Part shown: positions 28,435 through 50,431 of the stretch, piece by piece
Layout of the letters: each line of letters begins with the position of its first letter
Position numbering within the stretch: position 1 is the first letter of the stretch
Assembly: GCF_900086705.1 (NCBI RefSeq)
Contig: NZ_LT575483.1
Location: forward strand, 683,166 to 747,165
Reading direction: 5' to 3'
Length of the DNA stretch: 64,000 bases
Source: Massilibacillus massiliensis
Lineage (GTDB): Bacteria > Bacillota > Negativicutes > FLKF01
The notes under the pieces: model-generated
What the model was told of the DNA's origin: nothing
Seen by the model: only the letters and a program-made list of their open reading frames with translations
Database searches by the model: none
Position numbers and translations under genes: made by a program

Positions 28435-28492
28435 ATTGTACGCTTCCCCTATCGTACGGACAATTAAACAAATTTCCTCACCGGTTAGGAAA
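28435..28492 (-). promoter_or_regulatory. Shared regulon promoter P1 (IIB-IIA-maturase-regulator)
   Basis: Palindrome TTTCCT-N8-AGGAAA (28473-28492), 9 bp, -35 TTGTCC (28458-28463), 17 bp, -10 TACAAT (28435-28440), all read on the minus strand. The site just upstream of the -35 suits an activator. Confidence 0.8.
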
Positions 28493-28511
28493 ACTTATCC
28501 TATCCGTATAA

Positions 28512-28545
28512 AAAAAACCGGCTATGGAGGAAACTCTCCATAGCC
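28512..28545 (-). terminator. Terminator of the porin-sulfatase operon
   Basis: A perfect 10-bp stem (GGCTATGGAG) with a 6-nt loop, followed by T8 on the minus strand, lies just upstream of promoter P1. Confidence 0.92.
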
Positions 28546-28644
28546 CCAATCCCTATATTTCCGATGCAGCAAACTGCCGTCCGGCAGTGTAATCCACATT
28601 GTACCGGACAAAACACCGGCAAACAACGACACATTTCTTTTTTC

Positions 28645-30936
28645 TTACGATTTTAAATCAAGTTGAACATATGCATATTTCCCGTTAAAGGCAAACCCTG
28701 CTTTATCTCCGTAATTCCTGCTTACAGGCGTATTCGTATCCATCCCAAAGCTCATCCCTTCTTCAGAAATAGACGGTTTTACAAAGCTGCGTTCAATTGG
28801 AGACATGGCAACGAGTTCATCATCAAAATACAAGCTCCCCGTGCCGCCGCCTGTCGTATTTTTTTCAAATACATATTTCACAACAAGCCGCCCTGTCGGA
28901 ATTGATTTTTTAGACTGTATTTTTGTAACACTGCCAAAATAATTATGCTCAAAAATCAACTTATTATTTTTAATATAAAGCGTATATCCTGCAAATCGAT
29001 CACCAAAAGCAACCAACACCCCTTGTTGCTGCTGACTCGTGCGTTCAATCGGCACCGTAATTGTATAAGACTTATTTGCAATTTTTGGTGAAGCACCTTG
29101 TGACACTTTTTCCGTACCCGGATAAAATTTATAATGGTTTCTATTGTTCCAGGCATCATTCGGCGTAAATTTAGCTGCCAAAACAGCACCATTTTTCTTT
29201 GCTTCTTCCTGCCAAAGCTGCTGCAATTGCTTTAATTTTTCAGGATATACTGCCGCCAGATCCTGTGTCTCTGTATAATCCTGGTCCAAATTATAGAGTT
29301 CCCATGTATCCTGTTCAAAAGGACGCCCTTTACGATTTGCTGTCGACCATCCATCCATTTCACTTGAAATTGCTTTCCAGCCATTTTGCACAATAGAACG
29401 ATTTCCCTGCAGTAATTTATAAAGCGGCGGACGGTTTTTTTCTATTCCCGAAGAAAACGTATTGGCAAAACTTACACCCGTAACCGGAATTTGTTTGATA
29501 CCATGATACGTTTCTGGTGCCGTAACGCCCAAAACATCAAATACCGTTGGTGTAATATCACTCACATCCACAGATTGCCCAGAAATCTGCCCTTTGCGTT
29601 TCAGCCCCTGTGGCCATTGAATAATCAGCGGTGTTCGCGTTCCGCCATGATAAGTTGACCCTTTGTATCCTTTAAATGGCGTATTACTCACCATAGCCCA
29701 GCCACGCGGGTACAACCCCTGAAACTCTTCACTTCCCATCGTATTGATGCGCTTAAGATAATCTTTGATATCGGCTTTACTGTCTCCGCCGAGCCGACCT
29801 TTTATACTGGAGAAATAGTCGCTGCCAACCTCTCCTCCATAACAGGTAGCACCATTGTCAGAAAGCAATACAATCATCGTATTATCATATTGTCCAACTA
29901 CTTTTAAATAATCAACCAGCCGGCCAATTTGTTCATCCGCATGCGTAAGAAAGCCGGCATAGGTTTCTTCAAAACGCGCGAACACCTTCTTTTCTTCCGG
30001 AGACAACTTGTCCCACACCTGTGCTTTGAGATCTCCTGCCGTCAACTTTGCATCCGCCGGAATTATGCCGATCGCTTTTTGCTTCTCAAATCGCGCTTGT
30101 CGAATCTTATCCCAGCCCTGATCATATACCCCTTTATACTGTTCAATGTACTTTTGTGGCACCTGATGCGGAGAATGCGGTGCTCCAAGTGCCACATACA
30201 AAAAGAACGGCTTATCCGGCGATACAGATACCTGATTACTGATAAAACCCATGGCTTTATCAATCGTGTCCTCAGAAAAATGATAGCCCTTTTGCTTTGG
30301 CGTCTCAATGATATGATTATCCTGCACAAGCGGCGGATCATACTGATCCGCCTCGCCTTCTAAAAATCCATAGAAGTGCTCAAACCCTTTCGCTACCGGC
30401 CAATAATCAAATGATCCCGCGGGCTTAATTTGATGCGTAGGTGCTGCATGCCATTTACCGACCGCCATTGTTGCATAGCCATGATCTTTCAAAACCTGCG
30501 CAACTGTCGCGGCTTTATCTGTAATACGTCCGCGAATATCCGGCGTTCCTTCTCCCATATCAAAATCCGCAAGATTTCCCATCCCGACTGCATGACTATC
30601 CCGGCCAGTCAAAAGCGAGGCCCGTGTAGGCGAACAAACCGGATTTACACTGGAATTGTTATAACGCAAACCATTTGCGGCAAGCTTGTCGATATTTGGG
30701 GTCTTAATTTCAGCCCCATAACAACCAAAATCAGAAAAGCCCATATCATCCACCACAATATAAATGATATTTGTTTTCGGCACAGGACTCTGCTGCTCCC
30801 AGGTTGGCGGTATTGACGTCAGATCATTGTAAACAGAAGCCGCAAAAACCGGTGAAACCATACCAGCTGTTTGCGTAACCGCTACCCCCAGTATAGAAAG
30901 CTTCCACATCAGTTTCATTTTTCCTGATTTTTTCAT
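28645..30936 (-). CDS. Exported arylsulfatase, formylglycine type (paralogue 1)
   Basis: A Sec signal peptide (hydrophobic core residues 11-33, ending FAA) precedes an alkaline-phosphatase-fold sulfatase. The metal-binding DDMGFSDFG is at 63-71 and the active-site CSPTR at 101-105, where Cys101 becomes formylglycine. VGKWH and LLSDNGA are further catalytic or metal motifs. A C-terminal beta-rich domain of about 130 residues ends the 763-aa protein. It resembles the S1_4 arylsulfatase group; the glycan is unknown. The start at 30936 follows GGGAG. It is the last gene of the porin operon. Confidence 0.92.
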   Translation of the reverse strand: MKKSGKMKLMWKLSILGVAVTQTAGMVSPVFAASVYNDLTSIPPTWEQQSPVPKTNIIYIVVDDMGFSDFGCYGAEIKTPNIDKLAANGLRYNNSSVNPVCSPTRASLLTGRDSHAVGMGNLADFDMGEGTPDIRGRITDKAATVAQVLKDHGYATMAVGKWHAAPTHQIKPAGSFDYWPVAKGFEHFYGFLEGEADQYDPPLVQDNHIIETPKQKGYHFSEDTIDKAMGFISNQVSVSPDKPFFLYVALGAPHSPHQVPQKYIEQYKGVYDQGWDKIRQARFEKQKAIGIIPADAKLTAGDLKAQVWDKLSPEEKKVFARFEETYAGFLTHADEQIGRLVDYLKVVGQYDNTMIVLLSDNGATCYGGEVGSDYFSSIKGRLGGDSKADIKDYLKRINTMGSEEFQGLYPRGWAMVSNTPFKGYKGSTYHGGTRTPLIIQWPQGLKRKGQISGQSVDVSDITPTVFDVLGVTAPETYHGIKQIPVTGVSFANTFSSGIEKNRPPLYKLLQGNRSIVQNGWKAISSEMDGWSTANRKGRPFEQDTWELYNLDQDYTETQDLAAVYPEKLKQLQQLWQEEAKKNGAVLAAKFTPNDAWNNRNHYKFYPGTEKVSQGASPKIANKSYTITVPIERTSQQQQGVLVAFGDRFAGYTLYIKNNKLIFEHNYFGSVTKIQSKKSIPTGRLVVKYVFEKNTTGGGTGSLYFDDELVAMSPIERSFVKPSISEEGMSFGMDTNTPVSRNYGDKAGFAFNGKYAYVQLDLKS

Positions 30937-31023
30937 TTCAACTTCTCCCTTATGCATTCTTATCGCTTGTATCCAAGACTGCGCACAAACATTGCATGCG
31001 TTTCATGTGCACAGCAAAGAACT

Positions 31024-33342
31024 TTATAAGCCTTGGAATTCAGTACCTTTTTTCTGCATCTCATATCGTACATAATCGTATTTTCCTGTAAATTTAAAAC
31101 CATCTTTATTTTTATATGCCGGACTGACAGGCGAATACATATCCACGCCAAAGCTAATTCCTTCCATTGAAATAATGCGAGCTACACGTGGAACCTCTTT
31201 TTCACCGACCAGCTTATCGTTAACAAATAAGGTTGCTGTTCCACCATCGCCTTTTTCTGCTTTATCAAATTTGAATTTTACAACGGCCGAACCGATTGGC
31301 AGTTGCTCTTTTGAAACAATTCGTGTTACTTCGCCAAAATCATTAAATTCATACACCAGATGATTGTTCATGACATACAAGGTATATCCGGCAAAATGAT
31401 CCCCATGTGCGACCAAAACACCTTCCTCTGATTTTTTATCTCTGGTGATTGGTACTGTAATTGTATAAGACTTATTGTATAAATTAGGTGCAGCCGATTT
31501 TCCTAAAAAGCCTGTCCCTGGTAAAAATTTCATTACATTAGCCCGATTTGCTGCATCCGTAGGCCCTGGCACCCCTTGAATCACCGCACCATGCCGCTCA
31601 GCCTCTGTTTTCCACAATGCTTGTAAATGCTTCAATTTCTCAGGATATTGTGCGGATAAATCATGTACTTCCGCATAATCTTCTGCCAGATTATAAAGTT
31701 CCCATGCAGGTTTTTCACCCTTTACTTCTTTTTGATTGATCACCGCTTTCCAGCTTCCTTCGGTTATCGAACGATTACCCGTGCCTTTTTGCAGGCTGGC
31801 TCTTGTATGCAGGAGATTGTAATATACCTGATGTTCTGATTTTGCATTTGGCTGATCAAACGTCTGTGCAAAACTCTTACCATCCATAGGCAATTGATCT
31901 ATTCCATGATACGTCGTTGGCGCATCAAGCTTTAGTACATCCAGTACCATTGGCGTCACATCGGTTACATAAACCGGCTGATTGCGCACTTGTCCTTCTG
32001 CTGCAATTTTACCAGGCCAATGCACGATCAGCGGTACTCTGGTCCCCCCTGCATAGACAGATCCCTTATAGCCCTTAAACGGCGTATTGCTGACCATTCC
32101 CCAGCCTTTCTGATATAAACCTTCGACCTCCGGACCGCCAATAGTTTCCAAGCGTTTTGCATATTTCTTGACAATAGACGGACTATTTTCTCCCTTTAAT
32201 CCATTTCCTGCCGCAAGATAATCACTGCCTTCTTCCCCACCGGCACCGACAGCACCATTATCTGATATAACGACAATCATCGTATTATCATATTGTCCGA
32301 TCGCTTTTAAATGCTCAACAAAGCGTCCAATTTGTGCATCAGCATGGGTAAGAAATCCTGCATACGTCTGCATGAACTGGGTAAATACTTTTTTCTCCTC
32401 TACAGACAAGCTGTCCCATTGCTGCACCGTCTTATCTCGCGGCGTCAGCTCAGCATCTGCCGGAATAAGACCCAGTTGCTTCTGTCTGGCAAAACGGGCC
32501 TCACGTATCTTATCCCAGCCTTGATCATACACACCCTTATACATATCAATATATTCTTTTGGCACCTGAATTGGCGCATGTACTGCACCAAACCCCAGAT
32601 ATAAGAAAAATGGTTTTTCCGGCGCAACAGATGCAGCATCCGTTAAAAACAGATTTGCTTTATCCACCAAATCTTCTGAAAGGTGATAGCCCTTTTTCTT
32701 CGGCAATTCAAACTGCTGGTTATCGTACGTAAGCTGCGGATCATACTGATCTGTTTCCCCATCAAGGAATCCATAATAACGATCAAACCCCTTTGCCAAC
32801 GGCCAATAATCATATGGACCAACCGGTGATACATGATGCAAAGGTGCCAGATGCCATTTTCCAACTGCCAACGTTGTATATCCATTATCCTTTAGGATCT
32901 GTGCAATCGTAGCGGCCCGATTCGTAACCCGCCCGCGGCTGTCCGGTACAGTTATCCCAAAGTCAACCCTTGAAACCTGCGCCATCCCGACCGTATGATT
33001 ATCACGGCCTGTGAGCAGCGATGCCCGTGTCGGTGAACAAACCGGACATACGGTAAAATTATTATAACGAAGTCCATCTTCTGCCAGTTTATCAATATTC
33101 GGTGTTTTAATCTCCGATCCATAACTGCCAAAATCAGAAAAGCCCATATCATCCAAAACAATATATACAATATTCGTTTTTTCAGTTTTCGCTGCAGGCA
33201 ATCCCTCACTGCTTCCCTTTACCAGCCCATTGTGATTCGGTGTTGCAGCAAATGTTAACGAAGGATCATTCGCCATACTCACCAACGATAGACCAAGAAC
33301 CGACATACCCCACAATAAATTTTTACTTTTATTTATCTCCAC
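31024..33342 (-). CDS. Exported arylsulfatase, formylglycine type (paralogue 2)
   Basis: A 772-residue protein with an N-terminal signal sequence (LWGMSVLGLSL core), DDMGFSDFG at 64-72 and CSPTR with Cys102. The C-terminal beta-domain includes HGDHFAGYTLYV, a conserved part of all five exported paralogues. The start is GTG after AAAGGGGG. It sits between porin and paralogue 1, so outer-membrane entry and periplasmic desulfation are probably co-expressed. The active site is complete. Confidence 0.92.
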   Translation of the reverse strand: MEINKSKNLLWGMSVLGLSLVSMANDPSLTFAATPNHNGLVKGSSEGLPAAKTEKTNIVYIVLDDMGFSDFGSYGSEIKTPNIDKLAEDGLRYNNFTVCPVCSPTRASLLTGRDNHTVGMAQVSRVDFGITVPDSRGRVTNRAATIAQILKDNGYTTLAVGKWHLAPLHHVSPVGPYDYWPLAKGFDRYYGFLDGETDQYDPQLTYDNQQFELPKKKGYHLSEDLVDKANLFLTDAASVAPEKPFFLYLGFGAVHAPIQVPKEYIDMYKGVYDQGWDKIREARFARQKQLGLIPADAELTPRDKTVQQWDSLSVEEKKVFTQFMQTYAGFLTHADAQIGRFVEHLKAIGQYDNTMIVVISDNGAVGAGGEEGSDYLAAGNGLKGENSPSIVKKYAKRLETIGGPEVEGLYQKGWGMVSNTPFKGYKGSVYAGGTRVPLIVHWPGKIAAEGQVRNQPVYVTDVTPMVLDVLKLDAPTTYHGIDQLPMDGKSFAQTFDQPNAKSEHQVYYNLLHTRASLQKGTGNRSITEGSWKAVINQKEVKGEKPAWELYNLAEDYAEVHDLSAQYPEKLKHLQALWKTEAERHGAVIQGVPGPTDAANRANVMKFLPGTGFLGKSAAPNLYNKSYTITVPITRDKKSEEGVLVAHGDHFAGYTLYVMNNHLVYEFNDFGEVTRIVSKEQLPIGSAVVKFKFDKAEKGDGGTATLFVNDKLVGEKEVPRVARIISMEGISFGVDMYSPVSPAYKNKDGFKFTGKYDYVRYEMQKKGTEFQGL

Positions 33343-33416
33343 TGTATTGCCCCCTTTATTTTACAGCCGCCAACGCAACAATCGAAACCATTACACGATG
33401 ATATCATTTTATCATT

Positions 33417-34550
33417 TTAAAAATATTGGTATATCTCCAAGCGTACAGCTTTTTGTTTCTCCCCGGTAGCAATAACTTCCCGATCATCCAACTGCAATGA
33501 CATTGTCATATTTTTCACAGGAACATATTCAAAGCCAAGTCTCCAGGCTTTTTTCCCCATAATCCAGTTGTTGGTTGCATCAATGGAAGCACTGTATGGT
33601 ATGTTCAATTTCCCTGCATAAATCCCCCATGAACCTGGTTTCAGCCGTTCCATACCTCTATATTTCAAGAACACTTTATATTCAGTATCATCATCTTTGG
33701 GCAATTCAAGGTCAGATTTTACAACTTGTCCATTAATACTATAGTAATCATTTAATTTAATACCTAAACCCAGCTCGCCAAGATTGTAGTCGTTATTTCC
33801 ATAAGAAACATTATAATAAGACAAATTTGTCGATAGAGATGGATTTACCTTATATTGCGTTTGTATCGAATAAATAAACGGGGATTTATCTGCTGGAAAG
33901 ACACTATATTTACTATACTTTGAAACAAAAATATTGCTTTTCAATCTCCCCGCAATTACTTTTGTCTTAACCTTTTCACCAAACTTCAACCGCATACCAC
34001 TAATACTGGTATTTAGCATATTTGCTCCCGGACTGATTTCCTTAAACCTTCCCAAATCGACATTTGAGTTTAAGTAAGGAAACGAAAAATAAAGTCCTGT
34101 TACATTTGCATACTCCGGATTACTGTTGTCTGCATCGCCTGTATCCAACGATGCTTTTCCCTCCGTATAAAGTGTTGCAGTCATGTTGTCATCGATTTTT
34201 GCATCCATTTTAATAAAGGATAGCATGTGACTATTATGCTCCGCCCACTTTCGATCTGTTTTATCCGTCTTTTCCTGATCTATACGTGTACGCAAATACC
34301 CACTAATTTTAAACTTTTCTGCATTCTTCTGCTGTTGTTTCTTTTCCTTTACCTCTTGTACTTCTTTCTCCTTTTCTTTGACTTCTTGCTGCACTAATTT
34401 CTTTTCTAATAATTCCAATCTTTCAGTTAATTCTTTGATCTTCATTTCCTGCGATGCATTATCCTCCGCAGGAATCACCGCCGAAGCTTGTACGATTCCG
34501 TTTAAACAAGCCGACACCACCAAAAAGCTTAAAATTAATTTCTTACTCAC
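33417..34550 (-). CDS. Outer-membrane porin with N-terminal coiled coil
   Basis: A signal peptide (LILSFLVVSACLNGIVQASA) is followed by a highly charged coiled coil (about residues 28-75, rich in KE) and a barrel of amphipathic strands ending in YQYF, the aromatic C-terminus typical of outer-membrane barrels. This design is known from diderm Firmicutes. I use GTG at 34550, 9 bp after GGAGG. It heads a porin-sulfatase-sulfatase operon under shared promoter P3, so it probably admits the sulfated substrate. Confidence 0.85.
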   Translation of the reverse strand: MSKKLILSFLVVSACLNGIVQASAVIPAEDNASQEMKIKELTERLELLEKKLVQQEVKEKEKEVQEVKEKKQQQKNAEKFKISGYLRTRIDQEKTDKTDRKWAEHNSHMLSFIKMDAKIDDNMTATLYTEGKASLDTGDADNSNPEYANVTGLYFSFPYLNSNVDLGRFKEISPGANMLNTSISGMRLKFGEKVKTKVIAGRLKSNIFVSKYSKYSVFPADKSPFIYSIQTQYKVNPSLSTNLSYYNVSYGNNDYNLGELGLGIKLNDYYSINGQVVKSDLELPKDDDTEYKVFLKYRGMERLKPGSWGIYAGKLNIPYSASIDATNNWIMGKKAWRLGFEYVPVKNMTMSLQLDDREVIATGEKQKAVRLEIYQYF

Positions 34551-34775
34551 TACGATACGCCTCCAATTCATAAAATCTCATCAACAAGCACCCCTCATTA
34601 AAGTATATAAAGATTATCCATCCCCTCCTTTTCCTGCCTGAATAAAACACTATCGTAAACACGCAAAAATGATTTATCATCAACTACCTTGAGAATGCGA
34701 ATCCCCATAGGATCTGGTGCTGCAATCGGTACATTGCTTAAAGCGCTCTTGTGGATTCGATTCATCTTCAATATC

Positions 34776-34833
34776 ATTGTAGCGTCTCAGCCACATTCGT
34801 ACCATTAAGCAAATTTCCTATGCCTTGCGGAAA
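34776..34833 (-). promoter_or_regulatory. Shared regulon promoter P3 (porin operon)
   Basis: TTTCCG/AGGAAA palindrome with 8-bp spacer (34814-34833), 9 bp, -35 TGGTAC (34799-34804), 17 bp, -10 TACAAT (34776-34781) on the minus strand. The leader to the GTG start is over 200 nt. Confidence 0.75.
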
Positions 34834-34949: not shown

Positions 34950-36416
34950 TCAGCGTTTATCTCTTTTCATCGGAACAACATCCGTTGTTTCCATATAGAA
35001 TTTCAGGATTCTTTCCCGCATGTTCAAAATAAGCGCCTGATACCGAGGATCATCAATCAAATTGTTCAACTCGTTTGGATCATCAATCAAATCATATAAC
35101 TCACTTTTTTCATAAAGTCGCTCTACATATTTATGCTGTCCGACTCTGACCATCACCGCTTTCGTATGCTCCGGTCCCTCACTGCATTGACTGCTGATTT
35201 TAGGCCAATACTGCGATTCCGGTCCGTGCCCTGCTTCCGTCGCCTGAATTTCACCATGAATTCTGCCGCCTTCTGCGAACACAGCATCTCTATGCTCTTC
35301 ACGGCCTGCTAATACAGGTACGATCGATTGACCAAATTGCGTATACGGCAACGTAAATCCAGCGATATCCGCAATCGTTGCACACAGATCAACAAGTTCC
35401 ACGAAGGCATCACTGATTCTTGCCTGTACCTGCAAGCCTGCCGGAGGTTTGATAATAAACGGCACATTACAAACTGGATTTTCAAATGTATTTTGTGTCT
35501 TCTCTACGATCCCATAATCACCTGTATAATCACCGTGATCACTGAACATCAATACGGCCGTATCATCATAAAGCCCCTTTTCCCGCAGTGCATCCATTAC
35601 CAATCCATAATGATGATCCAAACGGGAAACCATCGCATGATACGTCGCCCGCAGCTCTTTCAGCCGCTCTTCACTCCATGAACCCAGACCCTGCTTTTCA
35701 TAAATGCTTTTTAACATACTCGGCTTTGCAGCCCAGTCTGCAGGTATCGGACGAATATCTTCAATCAGCGTACGGTCAATCGAGCTGAACCATGGCTCCT
35801 CACAAACATACGGAGGATGTGGAAAAAGTAAAGTAATATAGATGCAAAATGGTTGTTCACTTTCAGCCGGCCACTGCTCGATAAATTCCAGCGCTTTGTT
35901 TACACAGTTCCAATCATACTGCACAAATCGATTATCGCGCTCACCCTTGCCTGCAAAAAACGAATAATAGGTATCGTCTCCCGGTTTACCCCGATATCCA
36001 TTTTCCCACGTCTTATTCACAGAAGATTGAAATCCGGCATTCTTAGGATAGCCGCTATAATATTCATCGCAATACGCATCTAAGGATCGATCTGCAGGGA
36101 TGACATCATTTCTGCCCAGCCATAAAACGTGATAACCTTCATTTTTCAGCGTTTTAAGCAGCATCGGATCATCTTTTTCCAGCAAATAATGCATCGTGCG
36201 ATGACCACGCGTATGCGGATACCAGCCTGTTAAAAAGCTGCATCGACTTGGAACACAAACATTATTCTGACAATACGCATTGCGAAATGAAACCCCATCC
36301 TGTTGCACTACCTTATCTAAATTTGGCGTTATCGCTGCCTGGTTTCCCAAATGCCCTAACGCATCTGCTCTCATTTGATCAGCAACAAATACCACAATGT
36401 TAGGTCTTTTCTCCAT
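34950..36416 (-). CDS. Cytoplasmic sulfatase, formylglycine type
   Basis: A 488-residue sulfatase with no signal peptide: it starts MEKRPNIVVFVADQMRADAL, with the first metal ligand Asp13, CVPSR with Cys54, and FSDHGDYTGDYG later. It lacks the C-terminal beta-domain of the exported paralogues and belongs to a different sulfatase subgroup (choline/iduronate-sulfatase-like in outline). It should act on a sulfated sugar already inside the cell, perhaps after PTS uptake. The ATG at 36416 follows GGGGTG. It is last in the IIC operon. Confidence 0.88.
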   Translation of the reverse strand: MEKRPNIVVFVADQMRADALGHLGNQAAITPNLDKVVQQDGVSFRNAYCQNNVCVPSRCSFLTGWYPHTRGHRTMHYLLEKDDPMLLKTLKNEGYHVLWLGRNDVIPADRSLDAYCDEYYSGYPKNAGFQSSVNKTWENGYRGKPGDDTYYSFFAGKGERDNRFVQYDWNCVNKALEFIEQWPAESEQPFCIYITLLFPHPPYVCEEPWFSSIDRTLIEDIRPIPADWAAKPSMLKSIYEKQGLGSWSEERLKELRATYHAMVSRLDHHYGLVMDALREKGLYDDTAVLMFSDHGDYTGDYGIVEKTQNTFENPVCNVPFIIKPPAGLQVQARISDAFVELVDLCATIADIAGFTLPYTQFGQSIVPVLAGREEHRDAVFAEGGRIHGEIQATEAGHGPESQYWPKISSQCSEGPEHTKAVMVRVGQHKYVERLYEKSELYDLIDDPNELNNLIDDPRYQALILNMRERILKFYMETTDVVPMKRDKR

Positions 36417-36519
36417 TGTACTCACCCCAATTACATTTTTACCGGCAAGAACGATTGCCTGACAAATGATTTTTGTTCATCCACCCGATGAAATTCGCAA
36501 AAATTTCAGCTCAGTTTCA

Positions 36520-38835
36520 TCACTTTGATTTTTTTTGACTTCCCTCATGCTGCAGTTCAAATAAAACGTATTTCAAATCACCAGTAAAATGGAAACCACG
36601 GTGATCCGCATAATTTTTACTTACCGGTGAATTACTGTCTTCCCCTATACTGAGTCCTTCTGCCGAAATATTCCCACCAAAAGTTTTAGAAAGTTCTACC
36701 TCTCCAACGAGATGATCATCAATAAAAATTGAAGCCACGCCCTGTGTTTTGCCCGTTCTTACAAATTGATATTTCAACGTAGTTGCGCCCGTAGGCACCA
36801 CTTGGTTTGACTCAAGTTTCGTAACTTCACCAAAATAATTTTGTTCATACACCAACCGATTATTTTTTACATAAAGCGTATAGCCGGAAAATGCGTCTCC
36901 CTGTGCAACCAAAACACCTTCTGCTTTTTTCGTATCTCTCGTAACTGGTACCGTAATTGTATACGAGGATGCTTTCAATATTTTAGGACCTGCCGACTGG
37001 CCAATCCGCTCCATTCCCGCATAATACTTAAAGCTACTTCGATTATTCAGCGCATCTGTAGGTCCTGGTTTTCTCTGTAGGATCATCCCGCGTTTTTTCG
37101 CCTCAGTCTGCCAAAGCGCTTTTAACTGCGCTAACTTCTCCGGATACTGCGCCGCCAGATCATGGGCTTCCGTATAGTCTTGATTTAAATTGTACAATTC
37201 CCAGCGATCCTCTTCAAAAGGGCGTCCTTTTCTTTTTTGCGTGGACCATCCATCCGTATAGCTTGCAACAGCCTTCCATCCATCCTGAATAATCGAGCGA
37301 TTGCCCTGCAGCAGTTTAACAATTGGCGGATGCGCTTCAGCAGGCTTTCCATAGGAAAAAGTATTTGCAATACTAACGCCGGTCATTGGCAATTGCTTTA
37401 TTCCCTGATAAACCTCAGGTGCTTTCAGATGTAATACATCCAAAACCGTTGGCGTAAGATCACTTACATCCACCCTCGCTGTAGAAATTTCTCCTCTGCG
37501 CTTGATGCCTTCCGGCCATTGAATAATCAGAGGCGTCCTCGTCCCTCCATTATATGCAGAGCCTTTATATGCCTTAAACGGTGTATTGCTTACCATAGAC
37601 CAGCCTCGTGGATAAAGCCCCTGAAAATCCGGACCGCCCATTTCCTGCAGCTCTTTTAAATAGGCCGGTATCTTAGACGTACCATCACGCACTTCGCCGC
37701 GAATGGCAGGAAAATACGCTGCGCCTTCATCTCCGCCATAACAAGTTGCTCCATTATCTGATAAAAGAACAATCATTGTATTGTCATATTGTCCAACTTG
37801 TTTAAGGTAGCTGACCAATTTGCCAATCTGTTCATCTGCATGCGTTAAAAATCCGGCATAGGTTTCTTCAAACCGTGTAACCACTTTCTTTTCATCTGCG
37901 GATAAACTATTCCACAACTTCACTTCCGGATCCCGTACTGAAAGCTCGGCATCCGCAGGGATAATCCCCAGCGCCTTTTGCTTTTCAAAGCGCGCCTGCC
38001 GAATTTTGTCCCAGCCCTGATCATAGACGCCGTTATAGCGGTCAATGTATTCTTTCGGAACCTGATGCGGTGAATGCGGCGCCCCAAATGCCAAATACAA
38101 GAAAAATGGTTTATCCGGGGACACTGAAACCTGATCCGCAATATATTTTTCCGCCTTATTCACTACATCTTCAGAAAAATGATACCCTTTCGTCTTTGGC
38201 GTTTCTATTATATGATTATCTTCCACCAATGGCGGATCATATTGATCCGCTTCTCCCTCCAGAAAACCATAATATCGCTCAAAGCCCTTCCCAAGAGGCC
38301 AATAGTCAAACGGACCGGCAGGTGTCAGCTGATGCATAGGTGCCACATGCCATTTTCCTACAGCCATCGTCGAAAATCCATTCAATTTAAGAATTTGCGC
38401 CACTGTAGCAGCCTTATCGGTAATACGCCCCCGACTATCAGGCGTATTGATGCCAAAATCCAGATCGGCGAGATTTCCCATTCCGACCGTATGACTATCC
38501 CGCCCGGTAAGCAGAGCTGCCCGGCTGGGAGAACAGATCGGACATACCTCCGAATTATTATATCGCAGACCATTCGCAGCCAATTGATCAATATTTGGAG
38601 TTTGAATTTCCGAACCATAGGAACCAAAATCGGAAAATCCCATATCATCCAGTACGATATAAATGATATTTGTCTTTTGCATTTTATTGCTTTGCACTGC
38701 CGGTAATTGTGACAAATCATCTCTTACCGGAATTGCCGCTGCGGCTACAGGAGCAGCCACAGACAGCAGATGAGCAGCAGAAACTCCTAAAACAGACAGC
38801 CGCAGCAATGCTTTTTGCGTTCGTTTATCCATCAT
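36520..38835 (-). CDS. Exported arylsulfatase, formylglycine type (paralogue 3)
   Basis: 771 residues with an Ala-rich signal peptide (LLSVAAPVAAAA), DDMGFSDFG and CSPSR with Cys101. Closest to paralogue 1 by eye: both have EGEADQYDPPL and LSDNGATCYGG, whereas paralogues 2, 4 and 5 have a GETDQ segment. The C-terminal beta-domain is present. It is the third gene of the IIC operon, after paralogue 4. Confidence 0.92.
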   Translation of the reverse strand: MMDKRTQKALLRLSVLGVSAAHLLSVAAPVAAAAIPVRDDLSQLPAVQSNKMQKTNIIYIVLDDMGFSDFGSYGSEIQTPNIDQLAANGLRYNNSEVCPICSPSRAALLTGRDSHTVGMGNLADLDFGINTPDSRGRITDKAATVAQILKLNGFSTMAVGKWHVAPMHQLTPAGPFDYWPLGKGFERYYGFLEGEADQYDPPLVEDNHIIETPKTKGYHFSEDVVNKAEKYIADQVSVSPDKPFFLYLAFGAPHSPHQVPKEYIDRYNGVYDQGWDKIRQARFEKQKALGIIPADAELSVRDPEVKLWNSLSADEKKVVTRFEETYAGFLTHADEQIGKLVSYLKQVGQYDNTMIVLLSDNGATCYGGDEGAAYFPAIRGEVRDGTSKIPAYLKELQEMGGPDFQGLYPRGWSMVSNTPFKAYKGSAYNGGTRTPLIIQWPEGIKRRGEISTARVDVSDLTPTVLDVLHLKAPEVYQGIKQLPMTGVSIANTFSYGKPAEAHPPIVKLLQGNRSIIQDGWKAVASYTDGWSTQKRKGRPFEEDRWELYNLNQDYTEAHDLAAQYPEKLAQLKALWQTEAKKRGMILQRKPGPTDALNNRSSFKYYAGMERIGQSAGPKILKASSYTITVPVTRDTKKAEGVLVAQGDAFSGYTLYVKNNRLVYEQNYFGEVTKLESNQVVPTGATTLKYQFVRTGKTQGVASIFIDDHLVGEVELSKTFGGNISAEGLSIGEDSNSPVSKNYADHRGFHFTGDLKYVLFELQHEGSQKKSK

Positions 38836-41240: not shown

Positions 41241-41365
41241 TTTGCTCTCCCTCTCCCTTATATCATAATTTTTAAACGGCATGCATCAGACCGATAAACA
41301 AATCGCATGACCACACCGTCTTACCGTCATTGATCAAAGTCCTGGTACAGTCTGCAAGGATCAGC

Positions 41366-42694
41366 TTAATCGCATTTACTATTTTCTCCCTCTTCTTGTT
41401 TGAGTAGTACCTTATCATATGCCCGTAAAAATGGAATATAAAGAACTACGCTTAACACGAGCAACCCAAACCAAAGAACAACTGCCCGCCAATCCATCGT
41501 CGACAGAAAAGCCGCAAAAGGTCCTGGTGTTGTCATTGGTGCATTGATATAAATACGCCCCACCAAATTTAAATCAAATGCATAATATGAAATTAACCCA
41601 TTGAGCATTGGGATAAACACCATAGGAATAAACAAAAATAAATTTAAAATCATCGGTAAAGAGAATAAGATTGGCTCACTCACATTAAAAATTACAGGAA
41701 TAATGCCTATTTTAAATACCGATTTCATATGTTCTGATTTACCGACGATATACGCCGCGATAATCAAGGCTAAAGCTGCACCTGAACCGCCAAAATTTGC
41801 GAAAAAGATCCAATATCCGCCCGCTAAAATATGTGGTAATTCCTGGCCATTTGCCAATGCCTGCGCATTCTCTGCAAAATTCGCCATAAAAAACGGCATC
41901 GTTACTCCACCAATGGTTGCTCCACCATGAATTCCAAAAAACCATAATCCATTTAACAAAAACATAATCAATAAAATTCCCCAGGCCGAATCGGATGCAG
42001 AGACTACCGGCGAAAATATTTTCATCGTAAGCTGTGCGAGATTGAGGTTCCATAAACTCAAAGAAACTTCATTCAAAGACATAAAGAAAAACACGTTAAT
42101 AAATAAGGAAATTAATGCTTCAAACGGTGCTGCTACCATCGACGGCACACTTGGCGGCATCGTAATCTTCAGTCCCTTTTTATCAAGCATCCTTGTGATT
42201 TCAATCGTTCCCATCGCGATAATAATGCCCAAAAACATCCCCTTGGCATCAAGATAATTCATATTCATATAGGGTGCCTTGTTTACGGTTTCCACTGTAG
42301 CTGTCACACAGAAGAAGGTGAGCAAAGCCGTAATCACACCACTTAATTCATTCATCTTATATTTTCTGCTCATAAAATAAGCTACACCAATCACAGTAAA
42401 AAGTCCCAAAACTCCCATTGACATCTGATACGGCAGCATAAGTACATTTGCATGAGCAGCTGCCCAGGTCTTCCAGCTTACAAGCAGAGCCGTAAACCAA
42501 TTCGTTCCCTCCATCATTTTTGCATCTACCGGCGGCTGTGCCACAATTAATGCAACCCCGCCTAAAATTGTCAATGGTGTAACCGCCATTAATCCGGCTT
42601 TCATCGCATCAATATGTGCTTCCTCTCCCACACGAGCTGCCAGAGGAACCAATTTCTCCTTTATCGTATCCTGCCATCCTGAAAATAATGCCAT
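41366..42694 (-). CDS. PTS system lactose/cellobiose-family IIC component
   Basis: A 442-residue membrane permease with about ten hydrophobic segments and family signatures such as FGIHGGATIGGV and a NVSEPILF motif. It imports and phosphorylates a disaccharide or beta-glycoside with IIA and IIB. It is the only IIC in the window, whereas IIA and IIB occur twice. AGGAGG precedes the ATG. It heads an operon with three sulfatases under promoter P4. Confidence 0.94.
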   Translation of the reverse strand: MALFSGWQDTIKEKLVPLAARVGEEAHIDAMKAGLMAVTPLTILGGVALIVAQPPVDAKMMEGTNWFTALLVSWKTWAAAHANVLMLPYQMSMGVLGLFTVIGVAYFMSRKYKMNELSGVITALLTFFCVTATVETVNKAPYMNMNYLDAKGMFLGIIIAMGTIEITRMLDKKGLKITMPPSVPSMVAAPFEALISLFINVFFFMSLNEVSLSLWNLNLAQLTMKIFSPVVSASDSAWGILLIMFLLNGLWFFGIHGGATIGGVTMPFFMANFAENAQALANGQELPHILAGGYWIFFANFGGSGAALALIIAAYIVGKSEHMKSVFKIGIIPVIFNVSEPILFSLPMILNLFLFIPMVFIPMLNGLISYYAFDLNLVGRIYINAPMTTPGPFAAFLSTMDWRAVVLWFGLLVLSVVLYIPFLRAYDKVLLKQEEGENSKCD

Positions 42695-42812: not shown

Positions 42813-42870
42813 ATTGTATAAGCTCCTGCGCCTGCGTACAATTAAACAAATTTCCTATGTATTGAGGAAA
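42813..42870 (-). promoter_or_regulatory. Shared regulon promoter P4 (IIC operon)
   Basis: Palindrome TTTCCT-N8-AGGAAA (42851-42870), 9 bp, -35 TTGTAC (42836-42841), 17 bp, -10 TACAAT (42813-42818), minus strand. Confidence 0.8.
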
Positions 42871-43000: not shown

Positions 43001-43009
43001 TCCTGCTGT

Positions 43010-45259
43010 TTATTTTTTATCCTGCTCCAATTCAAACAACACAAACTCGTATTGCCCGGAAAACGGGAATTCACCTTTATCTTTATAATCCGCACTTACC
43101 GGAGAATATCGGTCACAGCCAATATCCATTGCTTCTGATCCAGTCAGTCTGAAACGTTTCGCAATCTGCGCTTTACCTGCTAAATTTCCATTCACGTACA
43201 GGTATCCAATCCCGGAATTTTTATCCGTCTTCTCGAATTTATAGCTGATCAATGATTTTCCAAGTCCAATCGGTACCTCAATACGATTTACCGTTCCAAA
43301 GTAATGATATTCATAAATCAATTTGTTATTTTTTATAAACATCGTATATCCATAGTTAAGATTGCCCATGGAGAAAAGTACCCCTTCATCCGCTTTGCTT
43401 GTCCGATCGATCGGAACCGTAATCGAATAAGATTTTCCCGGGGTATTTGGCGCAGCCCCCATGCCGATAGAGCCTACACCTGGATAATATTTGTACACAG
43501 TCTGCTTGGACCCGGCATAAATCGAATTAATTTCTTGCAGCGGCGTACCATGCCTGTCGGCTTCCGATTGCCACAGTGCCTGCAATTCTTTTAGTTTTTC
43601 CGGATATTTTGCAGCAACATCCACTGTTTCTGCGTAATCTTCCGTCAGATGATACAACTTCCATTGATCCTGGGAAAACGAGGTCCCTTGCTGATGAATT
43701 GCAATCGCTTTCCAGCCATCTTTATAAATTGACCGATTGTTATGGTGCAGATAATACTGCGCTCCATGCGTGGATGGTGCATTTTGCCGCTGAAACGTAG
43801 GCACTAAACTAGTCCCATCGATCGGTAATTGTTGAATACCATGAAAGGTATCCGGTGCCTTCACGCCGGCAATATCCAGCACTGTCGGCGTAAGATCTGT
43901 TACATGCGCATACTGCGTCCGCACATGATTTGCCTTTGTTTTTATGCCTTTCGGCCAATGAATAATTAATGGTGCTCTCGTTCCTCCAGCAAATACTGTT
44001 TCTTTAAAGTTTTGAAACGGCGTGTTTGAAACGTTTGCCCAGCCTCTTGGCACAGCACCGCCAAAATCAGGTCCGCCCAAATCTTTACTATGCTTCTTCA
44101 AATATTCTACCGATGGTATCTCTCTATGATATGCTTTGATATCAAAATCGTTGCCGTTTTCTCCGCCAAGCGCTGTCGCTCCATTATCAGAGATAATTGC
44201 AATCATTGTATTGTCATATTGACCAGTTTCTTTAAGCTTAGCTATAATTTCGCCAATTTTTGTATCTGCATAGGTCAAATACCCCGCATAAACTTGCATA
44301 AATCTGGCGCTAACTTTTTTTTCATCCTCCGTAAGCGACTCCCATGCCTTCACTTTTGCATCGCGCGGCGTCAATTTTGCATCCGCGGGTATAATCCCCA
44401 AGTTTTTCTGCTTTTCAAACCGCGCTTCGCGAATCTTATCATACCCCTGATCATATACACCATTATACAGTTCAATATACTCTTTTGGAGCTTGCAAAGG
44501 CGTATGTACTGCACTAAAAGCAGTATAAAGGAAAAACGGCTTATCCGGCGTTACCGATACCTGATCCGTAATAAATTGATTTGCCATCTTTGCTATATCC
44601 GCAGTAAACTGCGTATTCGTCCTATCAGACGAACTAATTTGATGATTATCGTAAATCAGCAACGGGCTATACTGATCAGTTTCTCCGCCCAGGTAACCAT
44701 AAAACCGTTCAAACCCTTTAGCCAAAGGCCAGTTGTTAAATGGACCGGCCGGTGTTACCTGCGCAATCGGTGTCAGATGCCATTTGCCTACCCCCATGGT
44801 ACTGTAGCCATTCGCCTGTAAAATTTGCGCTACGGTTGCAGCCCGATCTGTAATCTGCGCACGAAAGTTCGGATATTTCGGTCCCATATCCAAATTCGTA
44901 ATATATCCCATGCCAACAGCATGATTATCCCGCCCGGTCAGGAGCGAAGCACGCGTCGGTGAACAAACCGGACAAACATTAAAATCATTATAAACCAGTC
45001 CATCCGCAGCCAGTTTATCAATATTCGGCGTTTTAATCTCAGACCCATACGCGCCAAAATCACTAAATCCCATGTCATCAAGAACGATATAAATGAAATT
45101 TGTTTTTTCTTTACCAGCGCCGTTAAAGACCGGTGTCGAGATATCCTGCTTCATCACAGCCGCCTGAACCGAAGGCACAACTACATTTAAACTGACAGCG
45201 ACAGCAACGCCTAAAGCCGACCAGCGCTTAACCTGTCCCTTTTTCAATACTGGTTGCAT
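43010..45259 (-). CDS. Exported arylsulfatase, formylglycine type (paralogue 5)
   Basis: 749 residues with a signal peptide (ALGVAVAVSLNVVVPSVQAA), DDMGFSDFG, CSPTR with Cys99 and the shared C-terminal beta-domain. AGAGGGGG precedes the ATG. It is the last gene of the operon IIB2-IIA2-chr-chr-GH1-sulfatase, so it is tied to cytoplasmic glycoside cleavage. Confidence 0.92.
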   Translation of the reverse strand: MQPVLKKGQVKRWSALGVAVAVSLNVVVPSVQAAVMKQDISTPVFNGAGKEKTNFIYIVLDDMGFSDFGAYGSEIKTPNIDKLAADGLVYNDFNVCPVCSPTRASLLTGRDNHAVGMGYITNLDMGPKYPNFRAQITDRAATVAQILQANGYSTMGVGKWHLTPIAQVTPAGPFNNWPLAKGFERFYGYLGGETDQYSPLLIYDNHQISSSDRTNTQFTADIAKMANQFITDQVSVTPDKPFFLYTAFSAVHTPLQAPKEYIELYNGVYDQGYDKIREARFEKQKNLGIIPADAKLTPRDAKVKAWESLTEDEKKVSARFMQVYAGYLTYADTKIGEIIAKLKETGQYDNTMIAIISDNGATALGGENGNDFDIKAYHREIPSVEYLKKHSKDLGGPDFGGAVPRGWANVSNTPFQNFKETVFAGGTRAPLIIHWPKGIKTKANHVRTQYAHVTDLTPTVLDIAGVKAPDTFHGIQQLPIDGTSLVPTFQRQNAPSTHGAQYYLHHNNRSIYKDGWKAIAIHQQGTSFSQDQWKLYHLTEDYAETVDVAAKYPEKLKELQALWQSEADRHGTPLQEINSIYAGSKQTVYKYYPGVGSIGMGAAPNTPGKSYSITVPIDRTSKADEGVLFSMGNLNYGYTMFIKNNKLIYEYHYFGTVNRIEVPIGLGKSLISYKFEKTDKNSGIGYLYVNGNLAGKAQIAKRFRLTGSEAMDIGCDRYSPVSADYKDKGEFPFSGQYEFVLFELEQDKK

Positions 45260-45360: not shown

Positions 45361-46797
<1,437 letters not shown>

Positions 46798-46832
46798 TTA
46801 ACTTTACATCATTTTCTGTTTATGCAGACTGC

Positions 46833-47378
46833 TCAAAAAATAAATTCACCGATGATGCCTGCACCAATCAACAAGAGAATAGGATTCACATAACCTTTTA
46901 TCAATAGCCAGAAACTAATTACCATAAGAATTGTACTTTTCATATCAATCCCTCCTGAACCACCGATAATTCCATTGCTAATGGCAAATTTAATCGCTGC
47001 ATATACAATTGTGCCAATAATCGTAGCCCGTAAACCATAAAATACCGATTGGAGCAGCCGATGATGCTGAAATTTAAGAAATAATTTTCCCAGAACTAAA
47101 ATCACAAATAAAGACGGCAGCGTAATAGCAACACACGCAGTCACTGCGCCCATAACGCCGGCCATCTTAAACCCAATGACAGACCCGCTATTGGCAGCAA
47201 TTGGCCCTGGTGCCATAGCCGCTACCGCAATAATATCGGTAAGTGCTCGCACATCCAACCATTGATGCCGCGTTACCTCGCTTTCAATGATCGGAATAAT
47301 CGCATAGCCTCCGCCAAAACCAATAAACCCTATTTTAAAAAAAGTAATAAAAATCTCCATATATTCATGCATATTCAC
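46833..47378 (-). CDS. Short-chain CHR (chromate/sulfate) transporter, subunit 2
   Basis: 181 residues with the CHR signature FKIGFIGFGGGYAIIPIIE and MAPGPIAANSG, and about five membrane segments. Short CHR proteins work as pairs; the partner is just upstream with a 4-bp overlap. The family moves chromate and probably sulfate. Placement in a sulfatase operon suggests handling of released sulfate, which is inference. Confidence 0.88.
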   Translation of the reverse strand: MNMHEYMEIFITFFKIGFIGFGGGYAIIPIIESEVTRHQWLDVRALTDIIAVAAMAPGPIAANSGSVIGFKMAGVMGAVTACVAITLPSLFVILVLGKLFLKFQHHRLLQSVFYGLRATIIGTIVYAAIKFAISNGIIGGSGGIDMKSTILMVISFWLLIKGYVNPILLLIGAGIIGEFIF

Positions 47379-47986
47379 AAGTCTGCTTTCTCTTCATTTA
47401 TCTTCTGCTCCTTTTTGTTTTTCAGCACTTGCATGTTAAACACAAAAACGCCCAAAAAAGCGCCGGACAGAATAACAAAAATAATATTAATCTGTGGAAT
47501 AAACAACAAAACGGCCAAACTGACCAGACAAATCAGCCAGCTGCTTCTATCAATCAAAGCAGAATGCGACATTTTATAAGCAGCCGAAGCAATCAATGCC
47601 ACAATAACCGGACGAATCCCCGCCAGCGCTGCCAGGACATGTACATTATGCTGAAAAGAAACAAAGGCAGTTGCCAATAGAATCACAATCGCAAAGGTCG
47701 GAATGACCATGCCCAGCATGGCTGCAAATGCGCCCGGAATACCGGCAACCTGATAACCGACGAAAATAGCAGAATTTGTCGCAATCGCCCCCGGTGCGGA
47801 TTGTGCCAACGCAAAAATATCAACGATTTTATCGCCTGCAATCCATTTCTTTTTTTCCACAATCTCACGTTCCAGTATAGGAACCATCGCAAATCCGCCC
47901 CCAAAGGAAATCGGTGACAATTTAAAAAAACTCCAAAACAACGCTATACATAATAAAAAACACTCTTTTTTTTCTTTAACTTCCAT
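47375..47986 (-). CDS. Short-chain CHR (chromate/sulfate) transporter, subunit 1
   Basis: 203 residues with FFKLSPISFGGGFAMVPILE and SAPGAIATNSAIF, the same signature as its partner but with a different N-terminus, and about five membrane helices. It lies between IIA2 (125-bp gap with a hairpin) and the second CHR subunit, under promoter P2. Confidence 0.88.
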   Translation of the reverse strand: MEVKEKKECFLLCIALFWSFFKLSPISFGGGFAMVPILEREIVEKKKWIAGDKIVDIFALAQSAPGAIATNSAIFVGYQVAGIPGAFAAMLGMVIPTFAIVILLATAFVSFQHNVHVLAALAGIRPVIVALIASAAYKMSHSALIDRSSWLICLVSLAVLLFIPQINIIFVILSGAFLGVFVFNMQVLKNKKEQKINEEKADL

Positions 47987-48045
47987 GAATCTAACCTACT
48001 CATACTTAAATTTGGCAGATTTTCTTCAAATCGCCCTCATTCAAT

Positions 48046-48072
48046 AACCTCAACAATAACATTGCTGAGGTT
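48046..48072. other. Inverted repeat after the second IIA gene
   Basis: AACCTCA...TGAGGTT with a 13-nt loop, the counterpart of 27668-27695. It probably modulates read-through into the CHR genes. Confidence 0.5.
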
Positions 48073-48110
48073 ATCATCCCTTTCATCTCCTTATCAGACC
48101 AATGTCGCAG

Positions 48111-48413
48111 CTATGCATACGCTTCAAATACATCAATTAGCTCTTCTACCAGATCAATCACTAATATTGCATTCATCAAATGATCCTGGGCATGTACCGT
48201 AAGCAACCCCAATTCCATCTTTTCATTACTTGCTTCCCTCTGGATCAATTCCGTCTGTATCTTATGCGTTTCCAGAGATTTCTTCGAAGCCTCTTTGATC
48301 AGTTCCCTCGCCTTAGCAAAATTCTTATTCCTTACTTCCCCAAGTGCAGAAATTGCCAACCGATTTGCCTCGCCTGCTCCCAGTATCATCATCATCAGTG
48401 TTTCTTCATTCAT
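48111..48413 (-). CDS. PTS system lactose/cellobiose-family IIA component, copy 2
   Basis: 100 residues, differing from copy 1 only at residue 38 (Leu to Ile) and the last residue (Val to Ala). The active His78 region is identical. It serves the same IIC by all appearances. Confidence 0.93.
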   Translation of the reverse strand: MNEETLMMMILGAGEANRLAISALGEVRNKNFAKARELIKEASKKSLETHKIQTELIQREASNEKMELGLLTVHAQDHLMNAILVIDLVEELIDVFEAYA

Positions 48414-48447
48414 CTTTTTCCACCTCTGCCGTCAATCGCCTTATCGA

Positions 48448-48759
48448 TTACGCCTGCTCCTTATATAGTTTCTCTGCATAATCAATGACTTCCCTGCCTC
48501 GCCCCATACCATAATCCATTGGATTAATCACAGCAATCGGCTTATGATACGAATCAAAATCCCGCTTTATATGATTCAGTTTATGTCCTACCTGCGGTCC
48601 AAGCAGCACCACATCAAACTCCCTGATGAAATCCTCTGTCTGCGAAATCGGATGCGCCTCAATCCGCCAGTCCTTTTGCTCCTCTGTTAACGCCGCTTTC
48701 ATCTTATTCACCAGCAGGCTCGTTGATAAGCCAGCCGCACAAACTAATAAAATATTCAA
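48448..48759 (-). CDS. PTS system lactose/cellobiose-family IIB component, copy 2
   Basis: 103 residues with Cys7 in LLVCAAGLSTS. It differs from copy 1 at about a dozen positions in the second half (for example SQTEDFIREF for AETEDFIKDF). TTG start after GGGGAGG. First gene of the operon with the CHR pair, GH1 and sulfatase 5. Confidence 0.93.
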   Translation of the reverse strand: MNILLVCAAGLSTSLLVNKMKAALTEEQKDWRIEAHPISQTEDFIREFDVVLLGPQVGHKLNHIKRDFDSYHKPIAVINPMDYGMGRGREVIDYAEKLYKEQA

Positions 48760-48814
48760 AACCTTTTCCTCCCCATGATCCTACGATAGCTCATCGTTAA
48801 ATTTTCACTCTTTT

Positions 48815-48872
48815 ATTGTACGCTCCCCCTATCATGCGAACAATTCAACAAATTTCCTCACCGGTTAGGAAA
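48815..48872 (-). promoter_or_regulatory. Shared regulon promoter P2 (IIB2 operon)
   Basis: Palindrome TTTCCT-N8-AGGAAA (48853-48872), 9 bp, -35 TTGTTC (48838-48843), 17 bp, -10 TACAAT (48815-48820), minus strand. Confidence 0.8.
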
Positions 48873-48949
48873 ACCTACGGTATCATAAAAAATCCACTGT
48901 TGAAAAAAACCTGCCAAAACATATAAATCCTGCTTCTCATCTAATATCA

Positions 48950-49002
48950 AAAAAAAAGAGCAGAATGATGCCATAAAACATTCCATCGCATCATTCTGCT
49001 CT
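48950..49002. terminator. Terminator after the second maturase
   Basis: A 14-bp stem (AGAGCAGAATGATG) with an 18-nt loop and a long T run on the minus strand. Confidence 0.9.
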
Positions 49003-49018
49003 TTTATTCTATTTTGAC

Positions 49019-50272
49019 CTAATACCCAGCTTTTTTTATCGCGATTGGCCCTTTTATCGCATCCTTTACCCGGGATGCCGGAAGACCGTTTTCAATCAAT
49101 TGCCGCATCACTTTCATATAAGGATGAATATGACGGAAATACTTCTTATATCCCGCACACAGATAATTTAAGCCTGATTCCCCTGTTGGTGTCGTCAAAA
49201 ATCTATGTTTCGGGCACTCACCCTGACAGGCGAATTTCGCCTCACATTCCAGACAATACTCCGGTAATCCTGCACTTTTTTGCAATCCGAATTTCTGTTG
49301 CTTATCTGCAACAGCCATTTCCCCAGGCGCAGCAGTCAAAATATTTCCCAAATAGTAATCAGGATATACATAATGATCACAAGCATACACGCCACCATCA
49401 TGCTCCATAACAACAGATTCCCCGCAATGCTCAGCAAATACGCAAACCGTGGAAGCCAATCCCATCCATGAAGTCAAAGCCCACTCAAAATTCATTACAT
49501 AAATCTTTCCTACATCCTGACGCACCCATCGATCAAAAACTTTAATCAGGAAATTTCCGTATGCTTCCGGCTCAACCGTCCACTCCGTCACATCAGCCTG
49601 CATGATTTCCGACTGCACTGCCGGCGGTACTGCCAAATGCAAGCCCAGTTCCCCTGCCGCACAATCCGGATTCCGTTCCACAATAGGAATAAATTGCATA
49701 TATTTGACACCGGCATTCTTAAAGAACCGATAGATATCATCCGGACGATATGCCGCTTCCTTCGTAATGCAGCATAAAACATTGTACTCAACCTGATGCT
49801 TTTGCAGCAAGCGCAGCCCTCTCATCACCTGTTGAAAGGATGGCGCGCCGTCATTCTGGCGCCGATAGCGGTCATGAATAAAATCCGGCCCATCCATACT
49901 CAACCCAACCAAAAAATTATGCTCCTTTAAAAAAGCACACCACGCATCATCCAACAGCGTCCCATTCGTCTGCAGCGAATTCGTGATCTTTTTTCCGCCG
50001 GCATATTTTTGCTGCAAAACAACCGCCCTTTGATAAAATTCTAAACCTAAAAGCGTTGGTTCCCCGCCCTGCCAGACAAATGCAACCTCCATAGCTGGCT
50101 GTGCCTGAATATATTTACGAATAAACACCTCCAGAACCTCATCCGACATACAATAATTCTCAGTCTGTGGAAACAGCGCTGTTTTTTCTGTATAAAAACA
50201 ATACGTACAATTCAGATTGCACCTTGGTCCAATTGGTTTCGCTAACATATGAACAGATTTTTGTCCTTGCAT
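49019..50272 (-). CDS. Anaerobic sulfatase-maturating enzyme, second copy
   Basis: 417 residues from the ATG at 50272: radical-SAM Cys18, Cys22, Cys25 in CNLNCTYC, and SPASM cysteines in CVFAEHCGESVV, YACDHY, CLECEAKFACQGECP and CAGY. It is diverged from the 26413 copy, and the exact sulfatase each one serves is not evident. The frame is open upstream to 50392 but that part covers promoter P5, so the shorter start is preferred. It is a single-gene unit ended by a terminator. Confidence 0.92.
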   Translation of the reverse strand: MQGQKSVHMLAKPIGPRCNLNCTYCFYTEKTALFPQTENYCMSDEVLEVFIRKYIQAQPAMEVAFVWQGGEPTLLGLEFYQRAVVLQQKYAGGKKITNSLQTNGTLLDDAWCAFLKEHNFLVGLSMDGPDFIHDRYRRQNDGAPSFQQVMRGLRLLQKHQVEYNVLCCITKEAAYRPDDIYRFFKNAGVKYMQFIPIVERNPDCAAGELGLHLAVPPAVQSEIMQADVTEWTVEPEAYGNFLIKVFDRWVRQDVGKIYVMNFEWALTSWMGLASTVCVFAEHCGESVVMEHDGGVYACDHYVYPDYYLGNILTAAPGEMAVADKQQKFGLQKSAGLPEYCLECEAKFACQGECPKHRFLTTPTGESGLNYLCAGYKKYFRHIHPYMKVMRQLIENGLPASRVKDAIKGPIAIKKAGY

Positions 50273-50363
50273 GCTCCCTATCACCTTTCCAAATAAACAC
50301 TGATCTCTGAGACCTTTAACGATTTGCACTATATTTGATCTTATCATCCCTGTACTAAAAACT

Positions 50364-50431
50364 ATTATATAAATTATTAAAATTTTTGACAATTAAATAT
50401 TTTTCCTCTTTTTTCTATCCAGTTTAGGAAA
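50364..50431 (-). promoter_or_regulatory. Shared regulon promoter P5 (second maturase)
   Basis: -10 TATAAT (50364-50369), 17 bp, -35 TTGTCA (50387-50392), 9 bp, then AGGAAA and TTTCCT half-sites on the minus strand separated by 18 bp (50402-50431) rather than 8, exactly one helical turn more than the other four. Confidence 0.7.

Follow-up and report, generated by a model that had tools for sequence, protein, structure and literature searches.

The domain roles and phosphorylation logic of the PRD family of transcriptional activators are well established (PMC3478281, PMC8560693, PMC3217849, PMC10864463). In pneumococcal CelR, HPr-dependent phosphorylation of His226, His335 and His577 is activating, and the EII domains of the cellobiose phosphotransferase system (PTS) act on His283 and His394 (PMC3478281, PMC3585215). 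MtlR of Bacillus subtilis, which acts at the mtlA and mtlR promoters, uses a short palindrome upstream of the -35 element, with conserved flanks toward the -35, and activates its own expression (PMC3217849). Here, we consider a 64,000-nucleotide stretch of the Massilibacillus massiliensis genome (contig NZ_LT575483.1, positions 683,166 to 747,165; hereafter the window, in whose numbering all coordinates are given), where five promoters, P1 to P5, are spread across a sulfatase-rich locus. Very probably, they form the activator-dependent sigma-70 promoters of a single regulon, and the PRD protein encoded at 24427–26373 recognises them; such an assignment would provide a sulfatase-rich glycan locus in the Negativicutes, an outer-membrane-bearing Firmicute lineage, with a specific regulator and operator.

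CelR, the activator of the cel locus in Streptococcus mutans and S. pneumoniae, has the same domain order as the window protein (HTH, Mga, two PRDs, EIIB and EIIA), and its gene likewise lies among those for lac/cellobiose PTS IIB, IIA and IIC components and a phospho-beta-glucosidase. His335, His394, Cys413 and His577 of CelR correspond to His333, His392, Cys410 and His569 here (PMC3478281), whereas His226 and His283 of its PRD1 are matched by Asp229 and Arg281. Relative to that of CelR, the regulon in the window would gain six sulfatases, two maturases, a CHR pair, a porin-like protein and a methyl-accepting chemotaxis protein (MCP), and one of its sites, P5, has a spacer longer by one helical turn. 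MtlR has the same domain set, and its palindrome, its flanks toward the -35 and its autoactivation all resemble the arrangement seen here (PMC3217849); however, its half-sites are TTGTCA and TGCCAA (PMC10992428) rather than TTTCCT and AGGAAA, its palindrome apparently lies about twice as far from the -35, and it governs a mannitol PTS. A cellobiose-family PTS is coupled to a sulfatase and a sulfatase-modifying factor in a pneumococcal accessory island, as it is here, but control there is by a ROK family protein, only one sulfatase is present and a shared PRD operator is not described (PMC3283741). Similarly, the LevR-type activators combine PRD and PTS-like domains and control PTS operons, but they act with sigma-54 through an AAA+ domain (PMC10864463), which the window protein lacks, whereas the promoters considered here are of the sigma-70 type. 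In the literature searched, we found no description of such a sulfatase regulon, of an operator longer by one turn or of these PRD1 substitutions, nor of any such regulon in the Negativicutes. A CelR site in S. pneumoniae of the form TTTCC-N10-GGAAA is reported to have been described by Shafeeq et al. in 2011, so that streptococcal CelR probably provides an earlier case of this operator class.

Direct reading places all five elements on the minus strand, at the coordinates given in the preliminary description. P1 (28435–28492) comprises the operator TTTCCT-N8-AGGAAA (28473–28492), the -35 hexamer TTGTCC (28458–28463) and the -10 hexamer TACAAT (28435–28440). P2 (48815–48872) and P4 (42813–42870) have the same operator (48853–48872 and 42851–42870, respectively) and the same -10, with TTGTTC and TTGTAC, respectively, at the -35. 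In P3 (34776–34833), the operator is TTTCCG-N8-AGGAAA (34814–34833), followed by TGGTAC and TACAAT, and in P5 (50364–50431) it is a long-register TTTCCT-N18-AGGAAA (50402–50431), followed by TTGTCA and TATAAT. Common to all five are the TTTCC/GGAAA dyad and a conserved extension that runs from it into a poor -35 (in the N8 sites, TTTGTTTAATTGT); in each, 32 bp separate the proximal GGAAA from the -10 box. The exact string TTTCCT-N8-AGGAAA-N9-TTG is present in P1, P2 and P4, with 0.00 occurrences expected from dinucleotide shuffles. The preliminary description had portrayed the five as having paired TTTCCT/AGGAAA half-sites, exact spacing, a TTGTNN-like -35 and TACAAT or TATAAT as the -10. The last of these is borne out, and 9 bp to the -35 and 17 bp from there to the -10 are found in every case; P3, however, departs from the described half-site by one base in its distal half and from the described -35, and P5 departs from the spacing, its half-sites being separated by 18 bp instead of 8, i.e. 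by one extra helical turn. Terminators just upstream of four of the promoters were likewise located on the minus strand, ahead of P1 (28520–28545), P3 (34880–34906), P2 (48959–49000; a strong hairpin with a T-run) and P4 (42969–43000; a hairpin with a weak T-run).

Not all of these promoters are independent examples. The segments 27661–28515 and 48039–48892, each containing promoter, IIB and IIA, form a direct duplication with 92% identity over 860 bp; thus, P1 and P2 represent a single copied promoter, and four independent examples remain in the window. Since Propionispora sp. 2/2-37 retains a single operon with the order IIB-IIA-CHR-CHR-maturase1-PRD, the lineage of the window probably underwent duplication of the promoter-IIB-IIA block and splitting of the ancestral operon. 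So extensive a repeat might suggest that the promoters resemble one another mainly because promoter DNA was recently duplicated within the locus, with little regulatory meaning, but this is very improbable: P3, P4 and P5 are alike only in the operator, the -35 and the -10, their spacers and flanks being divergent, and two further genomes show conservation at the same columns.

The sites are, moreover, confined to this locus. The 4.0-Mb genome was searched both with plain patterns and with a sequence model, and a scan of this kind had been proposed beforehand as a check that the motif is not common at unrelated promoters; it proved not to be. When up to three mismatches were allowed, AGGAAATTTGTTTAATTGT matched the five locus sites and three other positions, which we rejected as they are devoid of promoter context, two being inside coding sequence and one overlying a ribosome-binding site and start codon. 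With no mismatches, the dyad alone was found only at P1, P2 and P4. The model, which spans 66 positions and was built from eight promoters that include these sites, recovered P1 to P4 at E ≤ 2e-13, with the next match at E 0.044; given that it was trained on these very sites, it is the gap to the next match that counts, and not the E-values themselves. The plain pattern searches agree with the model on the restriction to the locus. A cre site for CcpA was rejected by inspection: the core of cre is missing from the dyad, and the site is restricted to this locus.

Within a comparison set of 380 genomes of the class, a PRD ortholog was found in two, and these are also the only ones with more than one site when two mismatches are allowed. 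The homologous locus of Propionispora sp. 2/2-37 (L049 and L046–L048) is rearranged and encodes a PRD protein that is 80.5% identical to that of the window; it carries six operator promoters, one of them degenerate. N8 operators precede its porin, maturase 2 and IIB genes, N18 and N17 operators precede, respectively, GH1 and pgi (encoding phosphoglucose isomerase and absent from the window locus), and the degenerate one precedes IIC. In a third genome (G001), an IIC gene whose product is 71–72% identical to the window IIC is preceded by a one-mismatch version of the operator, with a 17-bp spacer and TAGAAT, and followed by a porin-like gene; a search for sulfatases in this genome, made without a positive control, found none. 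At IIC genes of 42–43% identity in other genomes, the operator was not found. When eight promoters are aligned, TTTCC, AGGAAATTT and TA-AAT do not vary, nor do several positions of the stretch leading into the -35. All of the aligned operator promoters have T as the fourth base of the -35, where the sigma-70 consensus has A, as would be expected of activator-dependent promoters.

The long register of P5 raises the question of whether this promoter belongs with the others. It scores poorly under the N8 model (E 4.4) and has the best -35 and -10 of the five (11 of 12 consensus positions), so that it might be a different element, constitutive or read by another protein, leaving maturase 2 outside the regulon. 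We consider this unlikely, as the long register is seen again in Propionispora, in full for GH1 (N18) and nearly so for pgi (N17), in both cases with the -10 at 32–33 bp; furthermore, the GH1 operator keeps the same extension, TTTAATTGT, and the Propionispora ortholog of maturase 2 has an ordinary N8 operator.

Evidence as to the identity of the protein that reads the site comes from other PRD-EIIA genes, whose products are 22–29% identical to the window PRD protein. TTTCC-N7-11-GGAAA dyads lie directly upstream of seven of these genes, compared with none in the control; over all DNA, and counting the window and the Propionispora locus, there are 28 such dyads against 4 in the control. Many have CTATG 8–9 bp downstream, in the position of the -35. 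This applies to the dyads adjacent to PRD-EIIA genes in L117 (~9469), L118 (~9165), L120 (6543), L122 (6722 and 6893) and L082 (1106), usually with a -10 at 32–33 bp, whereas that in L116 (~8656) has CTGG instead. A search of 60 genomes for TTTCC-N7-10-GGAAA-N8-9-CTATG gave 25 matches, against 2 for the reversed control; 11 of the 24 distinct CTATG-type sites adjoin PRD genes, and 10 of these 11 have a -10-like hexamer at 32/33 bp, a feature absent from all 13 of the others. On these comparisons, the dyad and its register belong to the PRD-EIIA regulator family in this class, and the flank TTTGTTTAATTGT is specific to the sulfatase locus; the fixed distance of 32–33 bp from GGAAA to the -10 would, in turn, furnish a simple sequence rule for predicting targets of the family.

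As the same dyad and register occur beside distant PRD-EIIA genes, a member of the PRD family is the presumptive reader of the site. The competing possibility, that the site is read by some other DNA-binding protein encoded elsewhere, such as a repressor or a global regulator, and that the PRD protein acts at other sites or not at all, draws on G001, where the operator is present and a PRD ortholog was not detected. This alternative seems distinctly unlikely: a global regulator would have further sites, and none was found in the genome; the dyad marks other PRD-EIIA genes in the same register; a site that stops 9 bp short of a poor -35 is better suited to an activator than to a repressor; and no second regulator gene was recognised among the open reading frames scanned between 22665 and 50392. 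The earlier attribution to the PRD activator at 24427 is therefore supported, at the level of sequence, by the locus-restricted sites, the co-occurrence with PRD orthologs and the dyads of the wider family.

Several points nevertheless count against recognition of P1 to P5 by the PRD protein. A binomial value of 4e-15 for the -10 register at PRD-adjacent sites overstates independence, because some of these sites are orthologous, being from sister species. The strict dyad was missing upstream of most of the distant PRD-EIIA genes examined, and it was found at none of six plasmid-borne PRD relatives (from Bacilli and from Pantoea, a gammaproteobacterium); for this reason, we make no claim that the operator is universal in the family. 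In G001 (84% complete, in 280 contigs), a PRD ortholog was not found. Additionally, the regulator could have a promoter of its own in the 203 bp that separate IIA1 from maturase 1, and both binding and induction are inferred from sequence.

The regulator itself (minus strand, 24427–26373) consists of HTH_11, Mga, a degenerate PRD1 (Asp229 and Arg281), PRD2 (His333 and His392), an EIIB-like domain (Cys410) and EIIA (His569). Pfam matches above the cut-off comprise, in order, HTH_11 (residues 5–62), Mga (95–170), PRD (308–394) and PTS_EIIA_2 (523–647). PRD1 and EIIB gave no Pfam match in the window protein; both regions can be aligned with their counterparts in 14 relatives, and PTS_IIB is matched in 13 of the 15 family members. 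His333, His392, Cys410 and His569 are invariant across the 15 aligned sequences. Asp229 and Arg281 are present in the window and Propionispora proteins, whereas most relatives have histidine at both positions. Some relatives, however, lack one or both; thus, the window PRD1 is a variant that does not exclude the protein from the MtlR/LicR/CelR type. Pfam gave no AAA+ match, which sets the protein apart from the LevR-type sigma-54 activators. Both domain order and residues fit CelR and MtlR (PMC3478281, PMC8560693), and by these features, the protein is an MtlR/LicR/CelR-type PRD activator. A scan of the contigs with the window protein as sole query found no relative, and one with a two-sequence alignment found only that of Propionispora.

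The operator lies upstream of sigma-70 promoters, and P1 precedes the operon of the regulator. In the mechanism that we propose, a PRD dimer would bind the dyad, centred near -54, and touch RNA polymerase at the weak -35; at P5, the distal half-site would be contacted one helical turn further out. Import of a desulfated beta-glycoside by the lac-family PTS (IIA/IIB/IIC) would cause the regulator to shed its inhibitory phosphates, with HPr maintaining the activating ones, and the freed regulator would then activate the porin-like gene, the sulfatases, the maturases, the PTS, the GH1 glycosidase, its own gene (via P1) and, probably, the chemoreceptor gene. One switch would thereby govern a PTS, six sulfatases and two radical-SAM maturases, probably along with a chemoreceptor. 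With the PRD1 histidines replaced by Asp229 and Arg281, control would be exerted only through PRD2 (His333/His392), Cys410 and His569; by analogy, Asp229 may mimic the activating phosphate and Arg281 may represent an inhibitory site that has been removed. Rather more speculatively, an activator whose PRD1 is fixed by these two residues might control the whole sulfated-glycan regulon and read two operator registers one turn apart, a combination that we regard as possible but doubtful; if this were true, PTS control would be partly hard-wired.

Going by gene order, the regulon comprises 18 genes, the MCP being a probable nineteenth. The single regulon of the preliminary description is supported, and its count of about 17 is slightly raised; the genes named there as following the promoters (IIB1, IIB2, the porin, IIC and the second maturase for P1 to P5, respectively) were confirmed. 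All are on the minus strand. P1 would drive IIB1 (28068–28379), IIA1 (27731–28033), anaerobic sulfatase maturase 1 (26413–27528; above the curated TIGR03942 cut-off), the PRD gene and, after a gap of 34 bp, probably the MCP gene (22665–24392) as its last. The MCP is probably a regulon member: an ortholog with 65% identity is encoded downstream of the operator-driven pgi in Propionispora. This placement of the ortholog, together with the position of the window gene directly after the regulator, suggests that chemotaxis to the substrate is co-regulated.

The P2 operon consists of IIB2 (48448–48759) and IIA2 (48111–48413), two adjacent half-size genes of the CHR (chromate transporter) family (46833–47986), a GH1 glycosidase resembling phospho-beta-glycosidases (45361–46767) and an exported sulfatase with the motif CSPTR (43010–45259). 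The glycosidase keeps an S-x6-K-x-Y pattern, which we take to be that of the phospho-beta-glycosidases. The CHR pair is retained in both sulfatase loci and could be an exporter of released sulfate. P3 is followed, after a long leader of ~200 nt, by the porin-like gene (33417–34571) and two exported CSPTR sulfatases (31024–33342 and 28645–30957). The porin-like protein has a signal sequence and no Pfam or NCBIfam match, 'porin' being the term of the preliminary description; it shares only 22% identity with the Propionispora protein at the corresponding position (L081, from 16058), and G001 has a similar gene after IIC. P4 precedes IIC (41366–42694), which, like the IIA and IIB components of the locus, is of the lac/cellobiose family, and three sulfatases, namely, two exported ones with CSPTR (38985–41282) and CSPSR (36520–38835) and one with CVPSR and no signal sequence (34950–36425). 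Since signal-like N-termini, as judged by eye, are present in five of the sulfatases and not in the sixth, desulfation is likely to occur before uptake, with a final step in the cytoplasm. P5 precedes maturase 2 (49019–50273), for which ATG at ~50273 is a likelier start than TTG at 50392. Next to the edge of the locus are a plus-strand promoter that matches the sigma-70 consensus perfectly (50949–50977) and a recombinase-type zinc-ribbon gene (51859–52476); together, these may be the remnant of a mobile element.

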